DNA of 22,648 bases, taken from a virus. A program made the position numbers and the translations under genes. Shown piece after piece: positions 1-13,340 of this stretch. The notes beneath the pieces were generated by a model. That model was not told where the DNA came from. It saw only the letters and a program-made list of their open reading frames with translations, and made no database searches. Position 1 is the stretch's first letter; the number at the start of each line of letters is the position of its first letter. The DNA lies in the IMG/VR virus record IMGVR_UViG_3300049255_000101, positions 1 through 22,648 of that record, one strand, 5' to 3'.

Positions 1-394
1 AGGCGTAGGTGGCGGAGGAGGTGGCGGCATCGGCGACGTAGGCGGCGGAGTCGGCGGAGGCGGCGGCGTAGGCGGCGGAGGCGTAGGTGGCGGAGGAGGT
101 GGCGGCGGGTACGGCGGCGGCGGCGGCGTAGGCGGCGGAGGTGGCGGCGGAGGCGGCGGCGGCGGAGGAGGCGGCGACGGCATTAAAAGCACAGTCTATA
201 GCAAATACTTCCACGAGGAACCGAGGCATTACTCTCACTACCACCCAAATCTTATCAGTATAGGAGATATTGGGTAAGTCAAGGAATTCCACCAAATCCC
301 CCTCAAAGGCCTTATAGTGTACCAGCCAATTATCTAATCTATCCTTACATGGATTTAAGCTTTTAATAATATCAGTGTTAATCTTGATTTTCAT
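1..394 (-). CDS. Alanine-rich Imm-5-like protein, partial (cut by left edge)
   Basis: This is a leftward gene whose 3' end lies outside the window; 131 codons are visible. The start is ATG at 394-392, with an AGGTG/AAGG purine run just upstream, 27 nt after the DUF932 stop. The N-terminal ~70 residues (MKIKINTDIIKSLNPCKD..., a DKIWVVVRVMPRF core, then FAIDCA) are nearly identical to the protein encoded at 2283-2762. The rest is a low-complexity A-A-X repeat with X = Ser, Thr, Tyr or Asp and almost all Ala codons GCC. The W...RVMP...VEVFAIDCA pattern followed by alanine repeats resembles the phage and bacterial 'putative immunity protein' (Imm-5-like) family, as I remember it. The biochemical role is unknown. 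Family assignment is fairly confident; function is not. Confidence 0.7.
   Translation of the reverse strand, partial: MKIKINTDIIKSLNPCKDRLDNWLVHYKAFEGDLVEFLDLPNISYTDKIWVVVRVMPRFLVEVFAIDCAFNAVAASSAAAASAATSAAYAAAAAVPAATSSATYASAAYAAASADSAAYVADAATSSATYA
188..394. repeat. 207-nt direct repeat, copy 1
   Basis: This segment aligns without gaps to 2556-2762, at a constant offset of 2368. I count roughly 22 mismatches by eye, most of them in the half farther from the start codon. It covers the N-terminal coding part of two alanine-rich paralogues and ends exactly at their start codons. This indicates a fairly recent duplication within the leftward operon. Confidence 0.85.
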
Positions 395-1424: not shown

Positions 1425-2042
1425 TTATTTTACCTTTTCTCCCTCTTTGATAAGCTCGTCTATCTCATCAAAGTTTTTAATAGTATCTTTGGCTAAACGA
1501 GCCTCTACACTCTTAGTAAGCTCTTGAAAGGCCGCTTTAGTGCGCTCATCTTTAATTCCACTTGGTTGGCTTTGTTTTGGAGCTATGTACCGCTTAGACA
1601 CGTACTTATTCCCCTCCCCGGAGCCACCCATTATACCCTTAATCTTGTCATCAACCTCTCTGCGCTTAGCCAACCATTCATTGATCTTCAGGGCCTTAAG
1701 CTGCTCGGGTGTCATCATCATAATGTCAATGGCACGTTCTCTAGCCTTAGCCCATTTTTCCTCTCGCTTACGGTCCACTGCCGCAATGGCAGCCAACATG
1801 CTCGCTTTGTCCTTATGTACGGTTACAATTGCCTGTCCTACCCGATAGGACTCTCCCGGACGAAAGTCGGTATGCTTATCCAACTGATACTGAGCCTTAA
1901 TCTCTACATTCCCAACCTTATCGCCTATCTTAACTTTAGGCTGAGATCGGGGCAGCCCATCTGGGCTCAGGGGAACGGAAGGAGGGGAAGGGCGGGGCTT
2001 AACGAAAAACCCCTTTAGCTTATTAAGCCATTTTTTTAACAT
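1425..2042 (-). CDS. Hypothetical basic, helix-rich phage protein
   Basis: A 205-aa protein of unknown function. It starts with a basic amphipathic stretch (MLKKWLNKLKGFFVKPRP), then a proline-rich linker, a short predicted beta-rich part (about 36-75, PKVKIGDKVGNVEIKAQYQL), and a long charged helical segment (about 78-130, rich in K/R/E). The C terminus is lysine-rich. The start is ATG at 2042 with AAAGGG about 7 nt upstream; a longer frame would begin with TTG at 2087 and lacks a ribosome site. It overlaps the upstream 86-aa gene by 20 nt, so translation is probably coupled. The amphipathic N terminus could bind membrane or nucleic acid, but this is inference. Confidence 0.7.
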   Translation of the reverse strand: MLKKWLNKLKGFFVKPRPSPPSVPLSPDGLPRSQPKVKIGDKVGNVEIKAQYQLDKHTDFRPGESYRVGQAIVTVHKDKASMLAAIAAVDRKREEKWAKARERAIDIMMMTPEQLKALKINEWLAKRREVDDKIKGIMGGSGEGNKYVSKRYIAPKQSQPSGIKDERTKAAFQELTKSVEARLAKDTIKNFDEIDELIKEGEKVK

Positions 2043-2283
2043 TGGTTTCACCCTTTGCTGGATCGGAAGTGATAGAGCTAACGACAATGACTTCAGTCAT
2101 GTCAAGAGGTACAATAAAAGAGGTACCTCGGTACTTCACCAACACTCCATGGCTGTGAAGTTCCATTTGAATGCCTTTATGGAAGGCATCACTTAACTCA
2201 CTGCCTCTGGCGGTGCAGATTTCCCCAATACCTGGGACAAATAGACTTTTCTTCAATTTGAGATTGGTAACTTTCATTTTCAT
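2023..2283 (-). CDS. Hypothetical small beta-rich protein (86 aa)
   Basis: An 86-aa protein with alternating hydrophobic residues and glycines, suggesting a small beta-barrel (SLFVPGIGEICTARGSEL, HGVLVKYRGTSFIVPLDM, EVIVV). No family is recognised. The ATG at 2283 shares one base with the TAA of the upstream alanine-rich gene (TAATG). The ribosome site GGAG sits 7 nt before it, inside that gene's last codons, so the two are translationally coupled. Its end overlaps the 1425-2042 gene. Confidence 0.7.
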   Translation of the reverse strand: MKMKVTNLKLKKSLFVPGIGEICTARGSELSDAFHKGIQMELHSHGVLVKYRGTSFIVPLDMTEVIVVSSITSDPAKGETNVKKMA

Positions 2284-2762
2284 TATTCAGCTCCTTGGAT
2301 TAAATAGATTATAGATTCAATTTGACGTTTGCGTTCCTCATCATGGAAGGCGACTATGGAGTCGGCGTCGTAGGAAGAGGAAGGGGGAAGGGGAGGGTTG
2401 TAGTAGTAAGAAAAAGCGATGTAGGCGGCGGCGTAGGCGGAGGATTCGGAGTAAAGGAAGAAACCATCATCACTATCGGCATCGATGGCGTCTTCGGTGT
2501 AATCAGAAACGCGGGCGGCGTATGCTTTGGCGAGGGAGCGTTTGGTGGCTAAGATAGCGCAATCTATGGAGAATACCTCTACCAAGAACCGGGGCATTAC
2601 TCTTATTGCTACCCAAATCTTATCCGAATAAGAGATATTGGGTAAGTCAAGGAATTCCACCAAATCCCCCTCAAAGGCCTTATAGTGTAATAACCAATTA
2701 TCTAATCCATTCTTACATGGATTTAAGCTTTTAATAATATCAGTGTTAATCTTGATTTTCAT
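2283..2762 (-). CDS. Imm-5-like protein with degenerate alanine-rich segment
   Basis: A 159-aa complete paralogue of the gene cut by the left edge. Residues 1-70 carry the shared MKIKINTDIIKSLNPCKN start and the core DKIWVAIRVMPRF then VEVFSIDCA. The middle (about 75-130) is only moderately alanine-rich and contains Tyr, Asp, Ser and Pro rather than pure A-A-X repeats. The C-terminal tail EERKRQIESIIYLIQGAE matches the tail of the 8330-9235 product. This order (helical core, Ala-rich linker, short helical tail) fits phage 'putative immunity protein' relatives known to me; no activity can be assigned. It overlaps the upstream GNAT-like gene by 17 nt. GAGGAG lies about 10 nt before its ATG. Confidence 0.75.
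   Translation of the reverse strand: MKIKINTDIIKSLNPCKNGLDNWLLHYKAFEGDLVEFLDLPNISYSDKIWVAIRVMPRFLVEVFSIDCAILATKRSLAKAYAARVSDYTEDAIDADSDDGFFLYSESSAYAAAYIAFSYYYNPPLPPSSSYDADSIVAFHDEERKRQIESIIYLIQGAE
2556..2762. repeat. 207-nt direct repeat, copy 2
   Basis: Partner of 188-394, same orientation, with no gaps in the alignment. Similarity stops at the start codon on one side and at the beginning of the low-complexity coding part on the other. It therefore looks like duplication of a domain-coding unit rather than of a mobile element. Confidence 0.85.
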
Positions 2763-3072
2763 GCTTGCTAAGCTCCTCTAATAACCTATCCTTAACTATC
2801 AACCCTTCTGACCTCCAAGCAAGCTTAACATAACAATAAGGTTTACTACCATTGGAGAATGAATACCCTAATATGGTATCTGGACTTTCATCCAAACAAG
2901 CTATTAATACTAAACCTTTAAGAATCTCTTCCAACTTCTTATGGTGAAGGGCAGACCAAGTAGCCCGCTTAAGGGTAGTAGCATTGCTTTTATTGAACCA
3001 TTCATTTCGAAGATAGGTGGCATAGATAAAGTTATGGTCCGAGGAAACGGCAGGGCGAATCTTAATCTTCAC
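2746..3072 (-). CDS. Small GNAT-like phage protein
   Basis: A 108-aa protein resembling short phage GNAT-fold proteins. It begins IRPAVSSDHNFIYATYLRNEWF, typical of GNAT beta1-alpha1. It continues with LIACLDESPDTILGYSFSNG (beta strands 2-3) and CYVKLAWRSEGLIVKDRLLEEL, the strand-4/helix-3 region that contacts acyl-CoA in true enzymes. The canonical R/Q-x-x-G-x-G/A loop is poor (RSEGLI), and the protein is shorter than typical acetyltransferases, so catalysis is uncertain. The start is GTG at 3072, overlapping the upstream stop as GTGA, with GGAAGG upstream. It sits between the HTH-like gene and an Imm-5-like gene. Confidence 0.65.
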   Translation of the reverse strand: MKIKIRPAVSSDHNFIYATYLRNEWFNKSNATTLKRATWSALHHKKLEEILKGLVLIACLDESPDTILGYSFSNGSKPYCYVKLAWRSEGLIVKDRLLEELSKHENQD

Positions 3073-3479
3073 AATCCAAATACCTTCCGCATATTATCAA
3101 TTCTAGCTTTTACTTGGTTTATCGTAAGCTGGTACTTCTTTCTATTTCCTCTATTATATCGCCTAAGCCTTTTCACTATCTCGCTGGGAACCATTCCATT
3201 GCAATGCATCTCCCACATAGCCTTAGCTCTTGTGTTAGGGAACCTTTCAGTATGCAGTTTATGGGAAGCCAGCCTGTAATATTCAGCCCTGCTTTCTTTA
3301 TATAACTTACTCTCATACCCTTTTATAGAGGTAAGTTGGTTCTCCATGTCAGTATTTAAGGGGCTCCCGCTCCACTTCCTCAATAGTCCGGTGGAGCGGT
3401 CTTCTATATCCCTAAACCCGGACTTAGCAAGTACCCGGTCCCACTTGGCTACTAACTGCTTTAGATTCTTTTCGTTCAC
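3069..3479 (-). CDS. HTH-like DNA-binding phage protein
   Basis: A 136-aa protein. The N-terminal part (LKQLVAKWDRVLAKSGFRDIED) resembles a phage family that precedes an HTH. The C-terminal half (about 90-136, RAKAMWEMHCNGMVPSEIV, then QLTINQVKARIDNMRKVFGL) looks like a sigma-region-4-type helix-turn-helix: a helix ending at HCNG, a turn, and two further helices. It is basic overall. I chose the GTG at 3479 because AAGGAAAAGG is positioned 6 nt before it; an ATG at 3500 has only a weak site and gives a 77-nt overlap. Even from 3479 it overlaps the upstream gene by 56 nt. Its role may be regulation of early genes (inference). Confidence 0.65.
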   Translation of the reverse strand: MNEKNLKQLVAKWDRVLAKSGFRDIEDRSTGLLRKWSGSPLNTDMENQLTSIKGYESKLYKESRAEYYRLASHKLHTERFPNTRAKAMWEMHCNGMVPSEIVKRLRRYNRGNRKKYQLTINQVKARIDNMRKVFGL

Positions 3480-3750
3480 TTTCTGCCTTTTCCTTTGCAT
3501 CCAACAAAACCTGCTGAGCTACCTGGTTGGCTGCTGCCTTGATGAGCATGTTTGCTATCTTTCTGACCGGAAACCGGGCCATTGTTGGAGGCAATTGGAA
3601 TATAAAACCTGCTGCTGCATTACGGACAGTATCGTTGTCTGGAAGACCAGATAACACTATAATATCTGATACCCAAGCATTAAAGCTTGTCATCCCTGTA
3701 GGCAATTTCCTAGGGAAGAAACTAGTTAGCCTTAGCAACAATTTCTTCAT
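3424..3750 (-). CDS. Hypothetical phage protein (108 aa)
   Basis: A 108-aa protein of unknown function. It has a basic N terminus, the segment LPTGMTSFNAWVSDIIVLSG, then DNDTVRNAAAGFIFQLPPT, and a helical region with ANQVAQQVLLDAKEKAESER. It resembles a ~90-aa phage family I recall as a frequent neighbour of the HTH-like and helix-rich genes found here, but no function is established. The ATG at 3750 has AGGG 6 nt upstream and lies inside the end of the upstream gene (29-nt overlap). The unusual C terminus (QVGPGTC) overlaps the next gene. Confidence 0.65.
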   Translation of the reverse strand: MKKLLLRLTSFFPRKLPTGMTSFNAWVSDIIVLSGLPDNDTVRNAAAGFIFQLPPTMARFPVRKIANMLIKAAANQVAQQVLLDAKEKAESERKESKAVSSQVGPGTC

Positions 3751-4033
3751 GGTTTCCCTCAGACTTTTGAGATTGCTCGCCTTTCTTAATAGTATTAGCT
3801 AATTCTTTTTGGGCGCGTTGGCGAAGGACTTGGTCCTGCTTGCCAAGAGTATCTGCCCGCTGGAACAGAGTGTTAAGTTGTCCATCTAATCCTTTAACCT
3901 CATGTTGCATAATGTGCCGGCGATAAGCAATTTGACCCATTTGAAAGATAACTCCATTGAATTCTTGTTGGAGTTGTTGAATGGTTTCTGGCTTGGAGGA
4001 CTTGCCCCCGAAGAACTTCTTAAATTTAGACAT
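3722..4033 (-). CDS. Hypothetical helix-rich / coiled-coil protein
   Basis: A 103-aa, mostly helical protein. Its basic start (MSKFKKFFGGKSSKPE) is followed by heptad-like segments from about residue 17 to 85 (ETIQQLQQEFNGVIFQMGQI, then GQLNTLFQRADTLGKQDQVL), consistent with a coiled coil. The C terminus is charged and probably disordered. No enzymatic motif is seen. The ATG at 4033 shares one base with the upstream TAA (TAATG), with GAGGAAG 4 nt before the start, so translation is coupled to the first gene of the operon. Confidence 0.65.
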   Translation of the reverse strand: MSKFKKFFGGKSSKPETIQQLQQEFNGVIFQMGQIAYRRHIMQHEVKGLDGQLNTLFQRADTLGKQDQVLRQRAQKELANTIKKGEQSQKSEGNHEEIVAKAN

Positions 4034-4278
4034 TAATCTTCCTCATTGTTCTTGGTTTTGGTCTTTCGGTTAGGGGATGAAGGAACATTACGGGTATCAT
4101 AAAACTCTAAAGCTGATTGAACATGAATGGCTTTATCCTTTTTGAAACGAATGGCTATAGTTTCTTCATGACTTAGTATTAGGCCTGTCTCAATAAGGTC
4201 TTTAAGAACCTCGGGGTAAGATAACCCCACTGTTGCTATCAACTTTGCCTTAGATATATGAAAAACAGTTTCATCCAT
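4033..4278 (-). CDS. Hypothetical first gene of the leftward operon
   Basis: An 81-aa protein starting MDETVFHISKAKLIATVGLS. Residues 8-45 could form a short helical DNA-binding-like fold (KAKLIATVGLSYPEVLKDLI followed by a beta-like ETIAIRF), and the C terminus is a basic, disordered KTKTKNNEED tail. No family is recognised. A longer frame starts with TTG at 4296, but I prefer the ATG at 4278. Neither has a Shine-Dalgarno site, unlike the rest of the operon. As the promoter-proximal gene next to the divergent control region it could be an early regulator; this is inference from position only. Confidence 0.55.
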   Translation of the reverse strand: MDETVFHISKAKLIATVGLSYPEVLKDLIETGLILSHEETIAIRFKKDKAIHVQSALEFYDTRNVPSSPNRKTKTKNNEED

Positions 4279-4317
4279 ATCTATATAGTAGAACAAATTG
4301 ATATGGGTGTAAAGAGA

Positions 4318-6413: not shown

Positions 6414-8333
6414 TTGAGATACTTAGTGGCAGATGTTGAGACCTTCGGGCTTGATCCAAAGAATGGGAAGTTGCTTGGAGTTTCTATTTGTCCTGTAGAT
6501 GATACAAGCTTAGCACAGTATATCTTCCTCCAATGGTATGATTTTAAGACATCTTCTTGGGTTAAGCACCCTGACTTTGACAAACAACTTAATAGACTAA
6601 GAGGGGCCTTAACTTCTTGGGACGGTCTAATAGGACATAACTATTCATATGACAAGTTGTGGTTAGACCATGTATTAGGTATACATACCAAATGGCATGC
6701 TTGCACACGACTTATGTGGCATATGGCTTCAGCCCCAATGGGACCTAAGCCATACGGCCTGAAGGATGCTCAGGTTGAGTTACTTGGATGGGACAAACGT
6801 GGTGATACAGAACTGTCTGCTCAGGTGGAGGCCCGAGGAGGCAAACTCAAGGAGGGCGGACACTACTTAGCCGATAAGGAGCTTTTGGCCAAGTATGCTT
6901 GTTTGGATGCCTCTTCTACAGCTCAGGTGTACAATAAGCTTAAACCATTCTTTGATGAGCATGACTATTGGTGGATGCTTGACAAGATGGTAGAGTATTC
7001 CTGGTTGCTTCAGGAATGCACCCTGGCCGGAATTAGGGTGGATGTACCGGCACTAGATGCGTGTGTGGAGGCGCTGTCCAATACCAAAGAAGCCTACGCG
7101 AGTAGGTTTTTGGAGATTACAAAGCCCTATATAGAGCGTCTAGAGAGGCTCTGGCGCGAGGACAGGGCGGCTAAGTATGTATCTGCAGATGCAAGACAAA
7201 GGTTTTTAGCTACTTGGGATCTCCAAAAGAAGTTTAATCTATCTTCGGATAAGGATAAGAGAGAGTTATTCTATAGTTCAATGAACCTACCTATTGTTAT
7301 TGAGACAGAAGGTGGCAAGCCATCAACGTCACTCGAGGCTATTAAGATTGTTTTAAAAGACAAAGAACTTTTGGAGGCATATGAGAACACTGAATCTGCG
7401 GAAACTCTTCTCAATAGCTTCGCTAAACCTTGGCAAGGAGTTGTTGAGTCGGAACGCCTACATCCTAGATTCAATTCGTGCGGTACTGTGTCATACCGCC
7501 TTTCTGGCTTCAAGCCCTATCTTCTTAATGCCCCGTTTGACGAAAAAGAATTGATGAGTTGCCTTAAGTGTGACGAGGGCTGGGAAGGCGTACATGCTGA
7601 CTTTGTTAGCGTGGAGCCGGCTGTAACTGCCCATTACAGCCAAGACCCAAGTCTACTTAAGGTATTTCGGGACGGTCTGGGGGATGTGTATCTTGACTTG
7701 GCTCTAACGTTGTTTCCCGATGACAAGGAGCTAAAGGCCGGATACAGCCCCCAGATGCCGGTAACATCAGTAGTTAAAGAGAAGTTTAAGAGACAACGTA
7801 AGGTGGCTAAGATTATACAACTTGCTGTTCAGTACACGGGGACTTGGAGAACTGTACAAAGAAATCTTAACTTAGAAGGATTTCCTACAACTCCGGTGGA
7901 GGCATCTGAGCTTGTTCAAGCCTATTGGAAGCACTTCTACCGCGTAGCCTCTATGAATGAGGCATTATTCCTTAAGAATATTAGAGATGGCTATTTACGT
8001 AATGTAGTTGGGAGGATTATCCGTGTACCTTATCCACGTTATAAAGACTTACCTAATCGTTTCATTCAGTCTAGTGCTCATGATCTTCTTTCTTTTTGGG
8101 TCATTATTATTAATCGAATGGTTAGAGAAAAAGGTCTTCGAGCCAAAACCGTTATCATCGACTGCCATGACTCAACAAGTTGGCAAGCCCCGAAAGAAGA
8201 GGTACAAGAGTTGGAGACATGTTTCAAAGAAGCTTTGACAGAGCTTAACGGGTTAGTTAGGATGAGTGTACCGATTAAAGCGGACTTCAAAAGATTTATT
8301 ACTTTAGCAGGTTTAAAAGGACAGGAAATATGA
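6414..8333 (+). CDS. Family A DNA polymerase with 3'-5' exonuclease domain
   Basis: A 639-aa replicative polymerase. The exonuclease domain (1-175) has Exo I D7-x-E9 (ADVETFGLD), Exo II GHNYSYDKLW (N76, D80) and Exo III Y161ACLD165. The polymerase domain has motif A D396...E401 (HADFVSVEP), motif B R462KVAK466IIQL470AVQY474 and motif C H585-D586-S587 (CHDSTSW). The residue equivalent to E. coli Pol I Phe762 is Leu470, and the usual motif C HDE is HDS. The start is TTG at 6414 with GGAGG 4 nt upstream, and Exo I begins at residue 6, leaving no room for a later start. There is no 5'-nuclease domain, as is normal for phage Pol A. The stop overlaps the next ATG. Confidence 0.95.
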   Translation: MRYLVADVETFGLDPKNGKLLGVSICPVDDTSLAQYIFLQWYDFKTSSWVKHPDFDKQLNRLRGALTSWDGLIGHNYSYDKLWLDHVLGIHTKWHACTRLMWHMASAPMGPKPYGLKDAQVELLGWDKRGDTELSAQVEARGGKLKEGGHYLADKELLAKYACLDASSTAQVYNKLKPFFDEHDYWWMLDKMVEYSWLLQECTLAGIRVDVPALDACVEALSNTKEAYASRFLEITKPYIERLERLWREDRAAKYVSADARQRFLATWDLQKKFNLSSDKDKRELFYSSMNLPIVIETEGGKPSTSLEAIKIVLKDKELLEAYENTESAETLLNSFAKPWQGVVESERLHPRFNSCGTVSYRLSGFKPYLLNAPFDEKELMSCLKCDEGWEGVHADFVSVEPAVTAHYSQDPSLLKVFRDGLGDVYLDLALTLFPDDKELKAGYSPQMPVTSVVKEKFKRQRKVAKIIQLAVQYTGTWRTVQRNLNLEGFPTTPVEASELVQAYWKHFYRVASMNEALFLKNIRDGYLRNVVGRIIRVPYPRYKDLPNRFIQSSAHDLLSFWVIIINRMVREKGLRAKTVIIDCHDSTSWQAPKEEVQELETCFKEALTELNGLVRMSVPIKADFKRFITLAGLKGQEI

Positions 8334-9235
8334 GCGATGAAAAGCTTTCTATTATTGGATTAGATGGTATCGAGCTAGGTAGGGGTTCCCATATTGAACG
8401 GGAGAACGGAGTGTGCGCCATGGAGGCGGTTGCTTGGTTGGCCGGGGAATCTCATTCAGCTTTCCCTCTATGTGCATGCCCAGTGATATCTAGATATGTT
8501 ATAATTCTTAATGACAGGTTAGGTTCTGATGAACGGCAGCTCCTCAAACCCTACTTGACTAGAATTATTGGAACTAGGGACGGCAATTTGTTTAGGAGAG
8601 TCAGTATTTTGACTCGGATTGCAGGTACAATTTTTGCCCCAATTGCTGCGGAAATTGTTGGACGAAGAGACCTTGCAGACGAAATGCGAGCTGTACCGAA
8701 AGGCAACTTCTTGGAACAAAAGAATGTGTGCAATAAGGTCTCCAAAAAGTTGCATGACTACGCCGCCTCCACCTACCCCGCCGCCTCCGCCGACGCCTCC
8801 GCCGCCGATGCCGTCGCCTACGCCGCCGCCTCCGCCGCCTACGCCGCCGCCGCCGCCGCCGATGCCGCCACCTACGCCGCCGACTACTCCGCCACCTCCG
8901 CCGCCTCCGCCGCCGATGCCGCCACCTACGCCGCCGCCTACGCCGCCGATGCCGCCGCCTACGCCGCCGCCGCCGCCGCCTCCTCCGCCTCCGCCGACGC
9001 CGCCGCCGCCGCCGACGCCGCCTCCTCCGCCGCCGCCGACTACTCCGCCGCCTACGCCGACGACGCCGCCGCCGCCTACGCCGCCGCCTCCGCCGCCTAC
9101 GCCGCCGCCTCCGCCGCCTACGCCGCCTACGCCGACGACGCCGCCGCCGCCTACGCCTCCGGAGCAGCTTTCGCCGACTGGAGAAAACAACGACAAATAG
9201 AATCCCTTATCTATCTTATTCAAGGAGCTAAGTAA
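8330..9235 (+). CDS. Long alanine-repeat protein with MEAVAWLAGE domain
   Basis: A 301-aa protein in three parts. Residues 1-85 carry a phage/actinobacterial-type domain (CAMEAVAWLAGESHSAFPLC, CPVISRYVIILNDRL, LLKPYLTRIIGTRDG) that usually accompanies alanine-repeat proteins; function unknown. Residues 145 to about 280 are A-A-X repeats with X = Tyr, Asp, Ser, Thr, nearly all Ala codons GCC. Residues 283-301 (DWRKQRQIESLIYLIQGAK) match the tail of the 2283-2762 product, so this is a domain-shuffled relative of the leftward Imm-5-like pair. The ATG at 8330 overlaps the polymerase stop, and AGGA lies just before. Its last codons hold the AAGGAG ribosome site for the next gene (TAATG overlap). 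Confidence 0.8.
   Translation: MSDEKLSIIGLDGIELGRGSHIERENGVCAMEAVAWLAGESHSAFPLCACPVISRYVIILNDRLGSDERQLLKPYLTRIIGTRDGNLFRRVSILTRIAGTIFAPIAAEIVGRRDLADEMRAVPKGNFLEQKNVCNKVSKKLHDYAASTYPAASADASAADAVAYAAASAAYAAAAAADAATYAADYSATSAASAADAATYAAAYAADAAAYAAAAAASSASADAAAAADAASSAAADYSAAYADDAAAAYAAASAAYAAASAAYAAYADDAAAAYASGAAFADWRKQRQIESLIYLIQGAK
8762..9170 (+). repeat. GCC-rich triplet tract (A-A-X codon repeat)
   Basis: About 410 nt composed almost entirely of GCC with interspersed TAC, GAC, TCC, ACC and GAT codons. Base composition is very different from the rest of the gene and the window. A similar tract on the opposite strand lies at 1-180. All six frames stay largely open, which creates spurious proline- and glycine-rich frames. 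The pattern suggests repeat-unit expansion by slippage or unequal recombination. Confidence 0.9.
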
Positions 9236-9900
9236 TGGCTAAACATTATAACTGGCTTACCCAAAATTCTAAGATAGCTAAGATGACTGGAATAAAGACC
9301 TATAATTGGGGCATTCCTGCTTATCAGTCTGCTTCAGGGCTTAAGACTTGTCCCAATGCTGCAGCATGCGCTAAAGGGTGTTATGCCACAATGGGGGCCT
9401 ATCTATTCTCAAATGTGGCTAAAGTATTCGAGGCAAGGCTTAAGCTGTCCCAGTCCCCCGAATTCGTGAATACAATTTGTTCTGAGCTCAAGAGACGCAA
9501 CGTACTTAGGCTGAGAATTCACGATAGCGGTGACTTTTATTCCAAAGGATACTTGCATGACTGGCTGTCTATAATGCATGCCAACCCTCGAGTGGAGTTC
9601 TATGCTTATACTAAGATGTACAGCCTGCTTAAATCAATTAATCTGCCTCTTAACTTTACAGTGATATACAGTTATGGGGGGAAAGAGGATAAGCTGATTA
9701 ATTCATCTAAAGACCGGCATTCCCGAGTATTTACAAGTTTGGCTGAATTGCAGGCTGAAGGGTATGCTGATGCCTCTAAAGACGACAGTGTTGCATTAGG
9801 CGACAATCACCGTATAGGCCTGATATACCATGGGAATAAGAGCATTGAGAATACTGATTGGCTGAAAGTTAAGCATGATAAGGGTAAGAAGGCAGCCTAA
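9235..9900 (+). CDS. Phage gene product 88 (GP88) family protein
   Basis: A 221-aa member of the GP88 family (Pfam 'Gene product 88'), widespread in phages and mobile elements, of unknown function. Its signature cysteines are C39, C45 and C49 in CPNAAACAKGCY, which could ligate a metal or Fe-S cluster. Further family blocks are RIHDSGDFYS (94-103), FYAYTK (122-127), YSYGGKED (145-152) and DRHSRVF (160-166). The blocks are all present and the length is normal, so it looks intact. The ATG at 9235 overlaps the upstream TAA (TAATG) with AGGAG well placed. It begins a stretch of accessory genes between polymerase and terminase. Confidence 0.85.
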   Translation: MAKHYNWLTQNSKIAKMTGIKTYNWGIPAYQSASGLKTCPNAAACAKGCYATMGAYLFSNVAKVFEARLKLSQSPEFVNTICSELKRRNVLRLRIHDSGDFYSKGYLHDWLSIMHANPRVEFYAYTKMYSLLKSINLPLNFTVIYSYGGKEDKLINSSKDRHSRVFTSLAELQAEGYADASKDDSVALGDNHRIGLIYHGNKSIENTDWLKVKHDKGKKAA

Positions 9901-9947: not shown

Positions 9948-10142
9948 ATGCCTAAAGAACTTAAAGTTACTTGTGAAGGTGGGAATGAGGTTATGGAAGA
10001 GGGAGACTACTGCGAGCATTCCGAGTGTCAGGAATGCTGTCCGCATGATGAGAGAGACCATGGTATATGTTTAGACTGCGGGCATGAAGAGGACCCGGGT
10101 GAAGCAATTGATAGGGCCATGGATTATTTGGAAGACAGATAA
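9948..10142 (+). CDS. Small acidic zinc-finger-like protein
   Basis: A 64-aa acidic protein rich in possible metal ligands: C9, C22, H24, C27, C30, C31, H33, H38, C41, C44 and H46. The C22...C44 part ends in CLDCG, a typical zinc knuckle, followed by an acidic helix (DPGEAIDRAMDYLEDR). No family is recognised. The ATG at 9948 has AGGAGG 7 nt upstream, a strong site, and stands 47 nt after the GP88 gene. Acidity argues against simple DNA binding; a protein-protein role is possible. Confidence 0.75.
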   Translation: MPKELKVTCEGGNEVMEEGDYCEHSECQECCPHDERDHGICLDCGHEEDPGEAIDRAMDYLEDR

Positions 10143-10167: not shown

Positions 10168-10635
10168 ATGGGATACACACACTACTGGCAGTTTAATAAG
10201 GTTAAGGGCATCACGGCAACTGAGCTTGAAAAACGGTATCAACAGGCTATGCGGGACTGCCACCGCGTTATTAAGGCCTATCAATCTTATGCAATCGGAT
10301 GTGATAGACTTAGCGGCTATAGCGCACACACTAGTGTGGGTCAATATGGCGGCATATATATCAATGGCAAGCAAGATAATGCCCATGAGCCATTCGTTAT
10401 GCGTGAACACTTCAATCAGAATGAGTCTGGTGGGTTCTGCAAGACTGCCAGGAAGCCTTATGATTTAGTGGTGGTGGCTTGCTTATCAATCCTTAAATAC
10501 CGCTTGGGCGATGCAATTAAGATTGGCTCGGACGGAGGTATGATGGATTGGGCTGAGGGAGCCTTGTGGGCCCGATGCGTGCTTAAGCGGTCTATTCTCA
10601 ATCCAATGAAGAGTAAGAAAGAAGAGGCAGCATGA
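10168..10635 (+). CDS. MGYTHYW family phage protein of unknown function
   Basis: A 155-aa protein beginning MGYTHYWQF, the hallmark of a broadly distributed phage family, with the conserved block GGFCKTARKPYDLVVVA near residues 92-107 and a C-terminal GSDGGMMDWAEG. The family's activity is unknown. The ATG at 10168 has GGAGG 8 nt upstream; a longer frame from 10084 overlaps the zinc-finger gene and lacks support. Its stop overlaps the next start (ATGA), coupling it to the beta-helix gene. Confidence 0.8.
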   Translation: MGYTHYWQFNKVKGITATELEKRYQQAMRDCHRVIKAYQSYAIGCDRLSGYSAHTSVGQYGGIYINGKQDNAHEPFVMREHFNQNESGGFCKTARKPYDLVVVACLSILKYRLGDAIKIGSDGGMMDWAEGALWARCVLKRSILNPMKSKKEEAA

Positions 10636-11435
10636 TTAAATATACATTCACTGGGCTAACAAAGGATGGCTTAAAACAAATTAAGCGTATATCCGATGGT
10701 ATGATAGGTGGATATATTGAAAATGAGAAGAATCTATCCCATGAAGACAATGCTTGGGTTGACTGCAATGCCCAAGTCTATGGCAATGCCCAAGTCTATG
10801 GCAATGCCAAAGTATATGGCAATTCCGTGGTATATGGCAATGCCGTGGTCTTTGGCAATGCCCAAGTCTATGGCAATGCCCAAGTCTATGGAAATGCCGT
10901 GGTATATGGCAATGCCGTGGTCTATGGCAATGCCCAAGTCTATGGCAATGCCCAAGTCTATGTCGATGCCATGGTCTTTGGCAATGCCAAAGTATATGGC
11001 AATTCCGTGGTCTCTGGATGCACCATGGTCTATGGCGATGCCATGGTCTCTGGATGCGCCCTGGTCTATGGCAATGCCGTGGTCTCTGGATGCACCATGG
11101 TCTATGGCGATGCCGTGGTCTCTGAACACACCAGGGTCTATGGCAATGCCCAAGTCTATGGCAATGCCAAAGTCTCTGGCAATGCCCAAGTCTATGGCAA
11201 TGCCAAAGTCTCTGGATACGCCAAAGTTTTAAGGTGCAGTGATATAGTGCTATGGCAGGGCAGTCCTCACTCAGTCACTATTACCCCCCAAAATATAGCT
11301 ATTGGATGCCAGGTCCGCCCTAGGTTCGGCAAAGGACAATGGAGCTCAAAAGATAAGGATGCAACTCCAGAATTAATTAAACACTATAAACCAATCTTAA
11401 AACTCCTCAAAAGCCAAGTGAAAAGGTCCAAGTAA
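10632..11435 (+). CDS. Hexapeptide-repeat (left-handed beta-helix) protein
   Basis: A 267-aa protein. Residues 1-39 form a small N-terminal domain ending GGYIENEKNLSHEDN. Residues 40 to about 201 are roughly 27 consecutive hexapeptides of the form N-A-x-V-Y/S-G, the signature of a left-handed parallel beta-helix with Val and Ala stacked inside. The C-terminal ~65 residues (SDIVLWQGSPHSVTITPQNI, IGCQVRPRFGKG) form a capping domain similar to those on related phage and clostridial repeat proteins. No acyltransferase active-site histidine loop is seen, so a structural role is more likely than catalysis. The start overlaps the upstream stop. Confidence 0.8.
   Translation: MIKYTFTGLTKDGLKQIKRISDGMIGGYIENEKNLSHEDNAWVDCNAQVYGNAQVYGNAKVYGNSVVYGNAVVFGNAQVYGNAQVYGNAVVYGNAVVYGNAQVYGNAQVYVDAMVFGNAKVYGNSVVSGCTMVYGDAMVSGCALVYGNAVVSGCTMVYGDAVVSEHTRVYGNAQVYGNAKVSGNAQVYGNAKVSGYAKVLRCSDIVLWQGSPHSVTITPQNIAIGCQVRPRFGKGQWSSKDKDATPELIKHYKPILKLLKSQVKRSK
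10749..11235 (+). repeat. 18-nt tandem repeats encoding the beta-helix
   Basis: About 27 copies of an 18-nt unit such as GTCTATGGCAATGCCCAA, each encoding one hexapeptide turn unit. Many neighbouring copies are identical at the DNA level, including synonymous positions. Because the unit is a multiple of three, other frames also stay open and give spurious repeat frames on both strands. Confidence 0.9.
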
Positions 11436-11551: not shown

Positions 11552-11821
11552 ATGGCATTTGACCCCATAACAGACCTATACAAGGATACATTAGAAATTC
11601 TTAAACGAGAGGTGAAGCATCTGCGTAACCTATCGATAGGGGCCAAGCTTCCGGCCAGCCAGGCTCGGGATCTTGTGAGCTATGTGAAGCTCTTGTCGGA
11701 TATGAAGGATGCCCAGGCTCGCATAAAGAAAGAGCAGGCAGAGGCAGCCGCAAAACCCACAGTGAACCAAACGGATGCTACCCTCGCCGCCATTGTCCAA
11801 TCTGTCAAGTCTATCCCCTGA
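11552..11821 (+). CDS. Small protein before terminase, possible small terminase subunit
   Basis: An 89-aa, mainly helical protein (DLYKDTLEILKREVKHLRNL, LPASQARDLVSYVKLLSDMK, then a lysine-rich helix with AQARIKKEQAEAAAK). The segment KLPASQARDLVSYVKLL could form a helix-turn-helix. Its place directly before the large terminase suggests a small terminase subunit or packaging regulator, but no decisive motif is visible. I chose the ATG at 11552; the open frame extends to a GTG at 11456, inside the inverted repeat. No ribosome site is evident at either. Its end overlaps the terminase frame by 47 nt. Confidence 0.5.
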   Translation: MAFDPITDLYKDTLEILKREVKHLRNLSIGAKLPASQARDLVSYVKLLSDMKDAQARIKKEQAEAAAKPTVNQTDATLAAIVQSVKSIP

Positions 11822-13340
11822 ACAAAGGGCTGCGGCTCTTGAGCTTGCCTATCGCCGTGGCTTGCTGGCCAGGCCAGGCTCGTTCCTGCTTAAGGACTAT
11901 TTGTTCGATAAGCAATTAGCCTTTGTGCAAGACCCAGCGCCTTTTAAGCTGGGGGTGACAACTAGACGAGCCGGCAAGACCATTTCCTGTGCTGCAGACC
12001 TCACCCACACAGCCGTTGAACATTCAAACGTTATAATGCTATATATCACTCTTAGCCGGAAGAATGCTAAGAGGCTGGTGTGGCCTGAGTTTAAGAAGCT
12101 TAACGTCAAGTTTAGCTTGGGCGGGGTGGTCAATGAGTCGGACTTAAGCATCACCTATCCTAACGGTTCCGTCCTATACGTGCTTGGGGCGTCCGACCGT
12201 ACCAGCATTGAGGACTTCCGAGGACTCCCAATCAAGAAAGTGTATCTAGACGAATCCCAATCCTTTCCTAGCTATATAGAGCAGTTGGTAGACGACGTTA
12301 TAGGACCAGCCCTGCTCGACCACGACGGCCAGCTCATCCTAATCGGCACACCCGGCCCCATCCCCAATGGTTACTTCTTTGACCTAACCAAGAATGCCTC
12401 TTGGTCTCATCATTCTTGGAGTTTTTTCGATAACCATAGACTGCCGTTCCTGGCCAAAGGGCTCACTCACCAGGACATGCTTAATCGAGAGCTCAAGCGT
12501 CGTGGTGTGTCCAAGGATGACCCAAGCATTCAAAGGGAGTGGTATGGTCGTTGGGTTATAGACGAGAGCAGCCTTGTATACCACTATTCGGCCGCTAAGA
12601 ATGACTATGACATCCTGCCTGAGGGGGATTGGACGTACCTGTTAGGCGTTGACCTTGGGTATGACGATGCAGATGCATTGGCTGTTGTGGCCTATTCGGA
12701 GCAACACCCCTGTACCTATGTGTTAGACCAGATTACCGCGCGGAAGCAGGACCTCACTAGTCTATGCCAACAGATTGATAAGATTAGGGACAAATACCCC
12801 ATTACTAAGATTATAGTGGACACCGGGGGATTGGGAAAGAAGATTACTGAAGAGATATCAAAGCGTTATGAGATTCCCATGGTAGCCGCCGAGAAGGTAC
12901 GTAAGGTGGAATATATAGAGCTAATGAACGATGCCCTGCGCACTGGTAGCCTTAGGATTAAATCTGAGAGCCAATTCGCCCACGACGCTATGAAGGTTGA
13001 GTGGGACCACGACAAGTCTACCCCAGACAAGAAGGTTATATCTGCCCGATTCCATTCAGATATATGTGAGGCCGTGCTTTACGTCTGGCGGGAGAGCTAT
13101 GCCTATACGTATAAGAAGCAACAGGTAGAGCCTGAGTATGGCACCAAGCTCTGGTCGGACAGGCAGTCGGAGCTAATGTTTCAGGATGCCCTGGATAAGG
13201 CCACTGAAAGACAGGAATTAGAGAAGGATGTTTTAGAGGAAATGAGAGAAAATGTTCAGATTGATATGGACTTGCATCAGAGATTAGACAGGCCCCCCAC
13301 AAGATATGCCAGTAAATTCAATAGGAAGCGTGGTCCATAA
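11775..13340 (+). CDS. terL: Terminase large subunit
   Basis: A 521-aa DNA-packaging motor. The ATPase domain has Walker A TTRRAGKT (62-69, K68), Walker B VYLDE (156-160, D159/E160) and the coupling motif LILIGTPG (187-194). The nuclease domain has acidic residues in GVDLGYDDADA (D293), IIVDTGG (D349) and HSDICEA (D429), the usual RNase H-like arrangement. Length is normal. The start at ATG 11775 overlaps the small upstream gene by 47 nt and has no clear ribosome site. A TTG six codons further is an alternative, and coupling to the upstream gene is likely. It is the first large gene of the late block and acts at the portal vertex during genome packaging. Confidence 0.93.
   Translation: MLPSPPLSNLSSLSPEQRAAALELAYRRGLLARPGSFLLKDYLFDKQLAFVQDPAPFKLGVTTRRAGKTISCAADLTHTAVEHSNVIMLYITLSRKNAKRLVWPEFKKLNVKFSLGGVVNESDLSITYPNGSVLYVLGASDRTSIEDFRGLPIKKVYLDESQSFPSYIEQLVDDVIGPALLDHDGQLILIGTPGPIPNGYFFDLTKNASWSHHSWSFFDNHRLPFLAKGLTHQDMLNRELKRRGVSKDDPSIQREWYGRWVIDESSLVYHYSAAKNDYDILPEGDWTYLLGVDLGYDDADALAVVAYSEQHPCTYVLDQITARKQDLTSLCQQIDKIRDKYPITKIIVDTGGLGKKITEEISKRYEIPMVAAEKVRKVEYIELMNDALRTGSLRIKSESQFAHDAMKVEWDHDKSTPDKKVISARFHSDICEAVLYVWRESYAYTYKKQQVEPEYGTKLWSDRQSELMFQDALDKATERQELEKDVLEEMRENVQIDMDLHQRLDRPPTRYASKFNRKRGP

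Follow-up and report, generated by a model that had tools for sequence, protein, structure and literature searches.

Organization of the locus

The window analysed here is the whole linear virus record IMGVR_UViG_3300049255_000101 (22.6 kb; 22,648 nt), which contains three genes for alanine-rich proteins, termed here a, b and c, among the features collected in Table 1. The first-pass annotation had described genes b and c and suggested that three alanine-rich copies with exchanged parts may form a modular system, possibly related to immunity or counter-defence. Our analysis agrees with it on the positions, strands and composition of the b and c reading frames, and the third copy does exist in the form of gene a, which is truncated by the contig end. 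The A-A-X tract is rich in Ala as claimed, but it is not strictly periodic: Ala dominates all three phases.

Table 1. Genes and other features of the window discussed in the text.
Feature	Position	Strand	Remarks
Gene a	2-394	minus	SDKIWV-type head (191-394), GCC-rich A-A-X tract (2-190); truncated by contig end, tail absent
Gene b	2283-2762	minus	159 aa; SDKIWV-type head (2559-2762), degenerate middle, tail (2283-2351)
Gene c	8330-9235	plus	301 aa; MEAVAW-type head (8330-8758), tract (8762-9166), SDKIWV-family tail (9167-9235)
DUF932 protein	422-1261	minus	Pfam and relatives
Early-gene module (p1425, p2023, p2746, p3069, p3424, p3722, p4033)	1425-4296	minus	gene b sits between p2746 and p2023
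DNA polymerase A	6414-8333	plus	Pfam and relatives
GP88-domain protein (PF17338)	9235-9900	plus	adjoins gene c, downstream
Small protein	9948-10142	plus	homologue known in relative G048
Terminase large subunit (terL)	11775-13340	plus	used as orientation reference
Long inverted repeat, left arm (tract of a)	2-181		pairs with 8945-9124 at 77%
Long inverted repeat, right arm (tract of c)	8945-9124		pairs with 2-181
AAGGAG ribosome site of GP88	9222-9227	plus	within tail codons of gene c
AAGGAG ribosome site of 2023-2283 gene	2291-2296	minus	within tail codons of gene b

Elsewhere in the window, positions 10632-11435 encode a 267-aa protein with NA.VYG repeats that match the YdcK beta-solenoid repeats (PF18836, E-value 3.8e-25); homologous repeats run across the contig ends of the relative G052. 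A 10-kb contig from another sample (L212) represents a near-identical phage, with late genes 97-100% identical to those of the window and a terminase fragment at 89% identity; its sequence begins only within terL.

Exchange of head and tail in gene c

The tails of b (RKRQIESIIYLIQGAE) and c (KQRQIESLIYLIQGAK) agree in 12 of 16 residues, while the runner-up in a six-frame search of the window reached 6 of 16. Over 22 codons and the stop, 9 codons are identical, 7 differ synonymously and 7 change the amino acid. The ribosome site of the next gene lies inside the tail in both loci, as had been noted, with AAGGAG placed 7 nt before the ATG, in the last codons. The best family tail for c scores 52, whereas 100 shuffled queries peaked at 33 against all 97 tails, hence the likeness is not due to chance. 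The scores of the c tail against 13 tails of short-head SDKIWV members have a median of 35 and a maximum of 52, those against 16 MEAVAW tails a median of 13.5 and a maximum of 24. The tail follows the pattern RQI[ED].[LI]IYLI of the short-head SDKIWV family and departs from the MEAVAW-family pattern [DE]L[LVF].RM, as c ends with RQIESLIYLIQGAK. A search of viral contigs with the exact-tail pattern, which was too strict, gave no matches. The tails of b and c are homologous, so the finding that would have refuted the first-pass annotation, a non-homologous tail or unrelated families, does not apply. The exchange of parts is real as well: c pairs a MEAVAW head with the RQIE.LIYLI tail that characterises proteins with an SDKIWV head. 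Judged by these tail scores and patterns, gene c bears the wrong tail for its head.

Alanine-tract proteins in other phages

A tblastn search revealed the MEAVAW head in 18 viral loci, 15 of them with a readable Ala-rich tract behind the head (one has no tract, one is cut and one is unreadable in frame). The head of c is homologous to its relatives over its length, with 37-48% identity to 11 of 16 and 30-36% to the remainder. Most readable tails of the MEAVAW proteins of other phages end with L..RM, and none of the 16 such proteins carries the tail of c; the tail count leaves out L006, whose frame breaks where the match begins, L012, L013 and L016, which reach a contig end, L019, which lacks a tract, and L023, which duplicates L018. 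The scan with the SDKIWV head yielded 32 viral loci and one metagenome-assembled genome, and its short-head members mostly have tails that read RQI[ED].[LI]IYLI or a near variant. Single-sequence scans for either head gave no confirmed match, and no examined contig other than the window has both heads (0/24 and 0/24). Among 27 terminase-relative records, SDKIWV heads are present in three, GP88 and MEAVAW heads in none. Tail class mostly tracks head class: for 58 of 83 tails the nearest one comes from the same class of head, several exceptions being headless fragments. For this comparison tails shorter than 10 residues were dropped. The near-duplicates L151 and L173 were set aside, and the "other" tails leave out L033, L044, L064, L080, L081 and L092 as well as the antisense frames of L058 and L072.

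A scan with the tract pattern found at least 120 stretches, with 80 loci listed. The heads among the matches listed divide among two large groups, the MEAVAW group and one singleton (one head analysis took 56 of 64 heads plus the window), and 57 scanned tract-bearing heads from the same matches include 19 that match PF21805 Imm5_like, 3 that match DUF7666 and 2 that match Imm5. As several unrelated head types are found on similar tracts, such combinations are common across phages. Tracts of this kind also follow at least three other head families among the matches listed (L039, L085 and others), with a YWENGKGCAVGCT type and a HAYE/DUF7666-like type among these families. In L168 (3271-4549) tandem Ala-tract genes lie directly behind the DNA polymerase, one with a SNPC-type head (AAWSAARS-type tract) and one of the SDKIWV type. 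In the relative G048 the region between early module and terS holds two genes that bear an A-A-T repeat tract (L282 928-1428; 1-447 minus), one of which runs off the contig end.

Protein families and predicted structures

Direct scans of a, b and c against Pfam, PHROG, NCBIfam and PADLOC returned nothing useful, and gene b matches no Pfam family at E-values up to 1. The immunity claim is supported only indirectly: of 19 heads of the SDKIWV family, 8 match PF21805 Imm5_like (best E-value 3.4e-9), whose name comes from predicted families, and 5 match PF14423 Imm5, but the window's own heads match neither. In a profile alignment the SDKIWV heads align with the Imm5_like heads of the RGDW type (hhalign probability 96.5%, E-value 8.3e-10). 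By this family-level homology, genes a and b have heads distantly related to Imm5_like. PMC3482391 presents Imm5 as a mostly helical predicted family, proposed to provide immunity in toxin systems and paired with deaminase toxins. Our literature search found no paper naming DUF7666, PF21805, Imm-5-like or Imm5_like.

Of the 16 proteins in the MEAVAW alignment, 12 match phrog_13065 (unknown function), with c below the threshold; c has the head of these proteins and their usual Ala-rich tract, but an SDKIWV-family tail instead of the usual L..RM. Profile comparison of the MEAVAW heads revealed no match of known function.

The first-pass annotation had called for structure prediction. The AlphaFold2 model of c has a mean pLDDT of 62.9, with a helical head and most of the tract below 50; that of b has a mean of 73.8, with the small head above 90, the tail helix at 87-88 and an uncertain middle. 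Foldseek found nothing in the PDB at E-values up to 0.001 for either model, nor in BFVD for c, and the best VIA-align Z-scores (6.6 and 5.7) do not rise above the noise level given for helical proteins. Searching solved structures with a profile yielded only matches to pantothenate synthetase at an E-value of 0.03, which we rejected as chance. In a plausible, hypothetical picture the head sits on a stalk of alanine helix, which the tail helix closes.

Alanine tracts as repeat DNA

In the tract of c 83 of 85 Ala codons are GCC, compared to 37% GCC in 17 other genes of the window, and the GC content is 0.83 in the tract of c and 0.79 in that of a, versus 0.48 in the whole window. In 40 tracts with at least 20 Ala codons (L007-L176) the commonest wobble base occupies a median of 92% of these codons, compared with 34% for neighbouring genes. 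Which base dominates in those 40 tracts (T, C, A or G) varies between phages, and the preference extends to non-Ala positions (median 94%). The window's only long inverted repeats are the tracts of a and c: each of the 25 longest among 30 pairs connects these tracts, and the best arms span 180 nt at 77%. Exact matches between the tracts, that of a being visible only in part, reach 32 nt at most, and the first 28 nt of the contig recur at position 79, inside the tract of a. Among the 51 loci fetched by their heads (33 SDKIWV, 18 MEAVAW), a contig end likewise cuts the gene short in seven, and in five of these the cut falls in Ala-rich sequence.

Gene order in related phages

Relatives of the terminase were fetched, and the genes of the window were mapped on 47 of 67 loci. 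The early module lies on the strand of terL in all 33 loci that hold terL and at least one module gene, whereas in the window it is opposite to terL. The DNA polymerase of the window is on the same strand as terL, unlike that of four close relatives, whose polymerases are at least 48% identical to it and lie opposite to terL (L209 65%, L211 50%, L213 48%, G048 68%; the early region of G048 was fetched separately from its terL, which is on the other strand, L208). In 16 further loci with a polymerase match the gene is on terL's strand, but these are distant (23-26%), so that only the close polymerases are informative. The G048 homologue of the 9948-10142 protein lies downstream of p1425 on the same strand, while the window pair is on opposite strands. 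Independent evidence came from a joined query with DUF932, GP88 and the polymerase, which gave 12 loci. In all four that hold both DUF932 and GP88 (L289-L292), the two belong to one co-directional cassette with a homologue of p10084, spaced by 55-66 nt in L289 and L291; the remaining GP88 loci (L293-L299) have no DUF932 match. In the window DUF932 and GP88 lie on opposite strands, 8 kb apart.

Turning the segment of ~1-9.1 kb that the a and c tracts enclose restores the arrangement of the module, the polymerase and DUF932/GP88 seen in the relatives. The order after the flip is DUF932, gene a, tail, GP88, and the tail-less gene a gains a tail of the SDKIWV type. As far as gene order tells, this segment is inverted relative to every related phage examined, with its ends in the tracts of a and c; a reversed segment that ends in inverted repeats is also what an assembly inversion leaves behind. 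By the gene order of the relatives, the tail and GP88 belong after gene a, and so it is an inversion or false join between the a and c tracts, not a modular system, that accounts for the exchange. The first-pass annotation was thus right about the exchange of heads and tails, but probably not about its modular cause.

Origin of gene c

We consider it probable that gene c combines a MEAVAW head with the tail of a, the likeliest cause being an assembly mis-join between the two tracts. The MEAVAW head that follows the polymerase would have been joined, inside the GCC-rich alanine tract, to the tail belonging to gene a; short-read assembly may have failed at this repetitive tract of 79-83% GC and attached the real end of a to c. 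The stop of the contig in the tract of a, the similar stops in other loci and a benchmark of virome assemblers in which genomic repeats lowered contig accuracy across assemblers (PMC6350398) make a mis-join the most economical explanation. Against it, the 32-nt exact match between a and c is shorter than the final k-mers of many assemblers, the contig ends at a 28-nt repeat internal to the tract of a and not at an a-c repeat, and no contig that runs from a through the tract and tail to GP88 was found. Assembly inversions at inverted repeats (relocation/inversion misassemblies) resemble the window in the reversed segment bounded by inverted repeats, the contig end in a repeat and the reversed synteny; at the level of contig sequence a real inversion looks the same. 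The shared tail, the mixed head and tail, the reversed order and the matching inverted repeats are directly observed, and the join in c is probably an artefact rather than a real inversion. Gene b is intact, gene a and the head of c are real, and all are ordinary members of phage Ala-tract families.

A mis-join also requires a separate event of head copying or conversion to account for the divergence of a and b. Their heads are 84% identical, with 22 differing positions in the first 204 bp; the likeness begins at the ATG and stops at the tract, and the 60 nt upstream are identical at 11 positions, no better than chance (random mean 15). If the tail of c is that of a, the tails of a and b, with 23 of 69 nt different, are more diverged than the heads, which makes recent copying of the head alone likely. 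The a/b head is likely a modest true case of module copying.

A real inversion, in which the inverted a and c tracts recombined, turning over ~8.8 kb and swapping the 3' ends of two genes, perhaps reversibly, seems to us unlikely. With respect to the late genes, the early and replication genes would then be reversed. Near-uniform tract codons do give inverted repeats of 180 nt at 77%, and the flipped segment has divergent operons of its own and could work in either orientation. However, none of 33 relative loci has the orientation of the window, no recombinase family was detected by Pfam among 18 window proteins scanned, and exact matches between the tracts do not exceed 32 nt, a length that argues somewhat against both a mis-join and a real inversion. 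In invertible phage segments such as the Mu G segment or shufflons, a dedicated recombinase acts on short fixed sites. Gene ends would be exchanged in the window too if a segment flanked by inverted repeats turned round, but here the repeats are coding tracts, and the proteins scanned include no recombinase. That the Ala tracts are working recombination sites, inverted copies of which flip the 8.8-kb segment without a dedicated recombinase, is a still more doubtful suggestion; if true, two Imm5-like/MEAVAW genes would trade ends through the flip, which would also switch the early operon that runs into GP88 and the late genes.

Gene c is rather improbable as an old, real chimera, in which a polymerase-adjacent gene of the SDKIWV family received a MEAVAW head via the tract and the genome was rearranged separately. 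The Ala-tract genes of L168 behind its polymerase and the sharing of such tracts by several unrelated head types would fit this origin, but it requires two independent events at one breakpoint, leaves the split of DUF932 and GP88 unexplained, and has to contend with a tail found in no other MEAVAW protein (n=16) and with two heads that share no other examined contig. Least credible is that a, b and c form a functional mix-and-match immunity or counter-defence set, since despite the Imm5_like homology of the SDKIWV heads the sole PADLOC match among the window proteins has an E-value of 0.05 (p2746), with nothing convincing for the other heads, no toxin family, and hence no partner of the kind with which Imm5 systems pair, was recognised among the window proteins scanned, and the MEAVAW heads show no relation to Imm5_like or SDKIWV heads in profile comparison.

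Implications

Several unrelated phage head families, Imm5_like included, have Ala-rich tracts, a group without known function. For metagenomic phages in general, our analysis carries a warning: alanine tracts with near-uniform codons act as repeat DNA, cut contigs and can yield chimeric proteins that are false yet convincing. If the inversion were real, such tracts would offer a phage a simple means to exchange protein ends and re-wire its operons.
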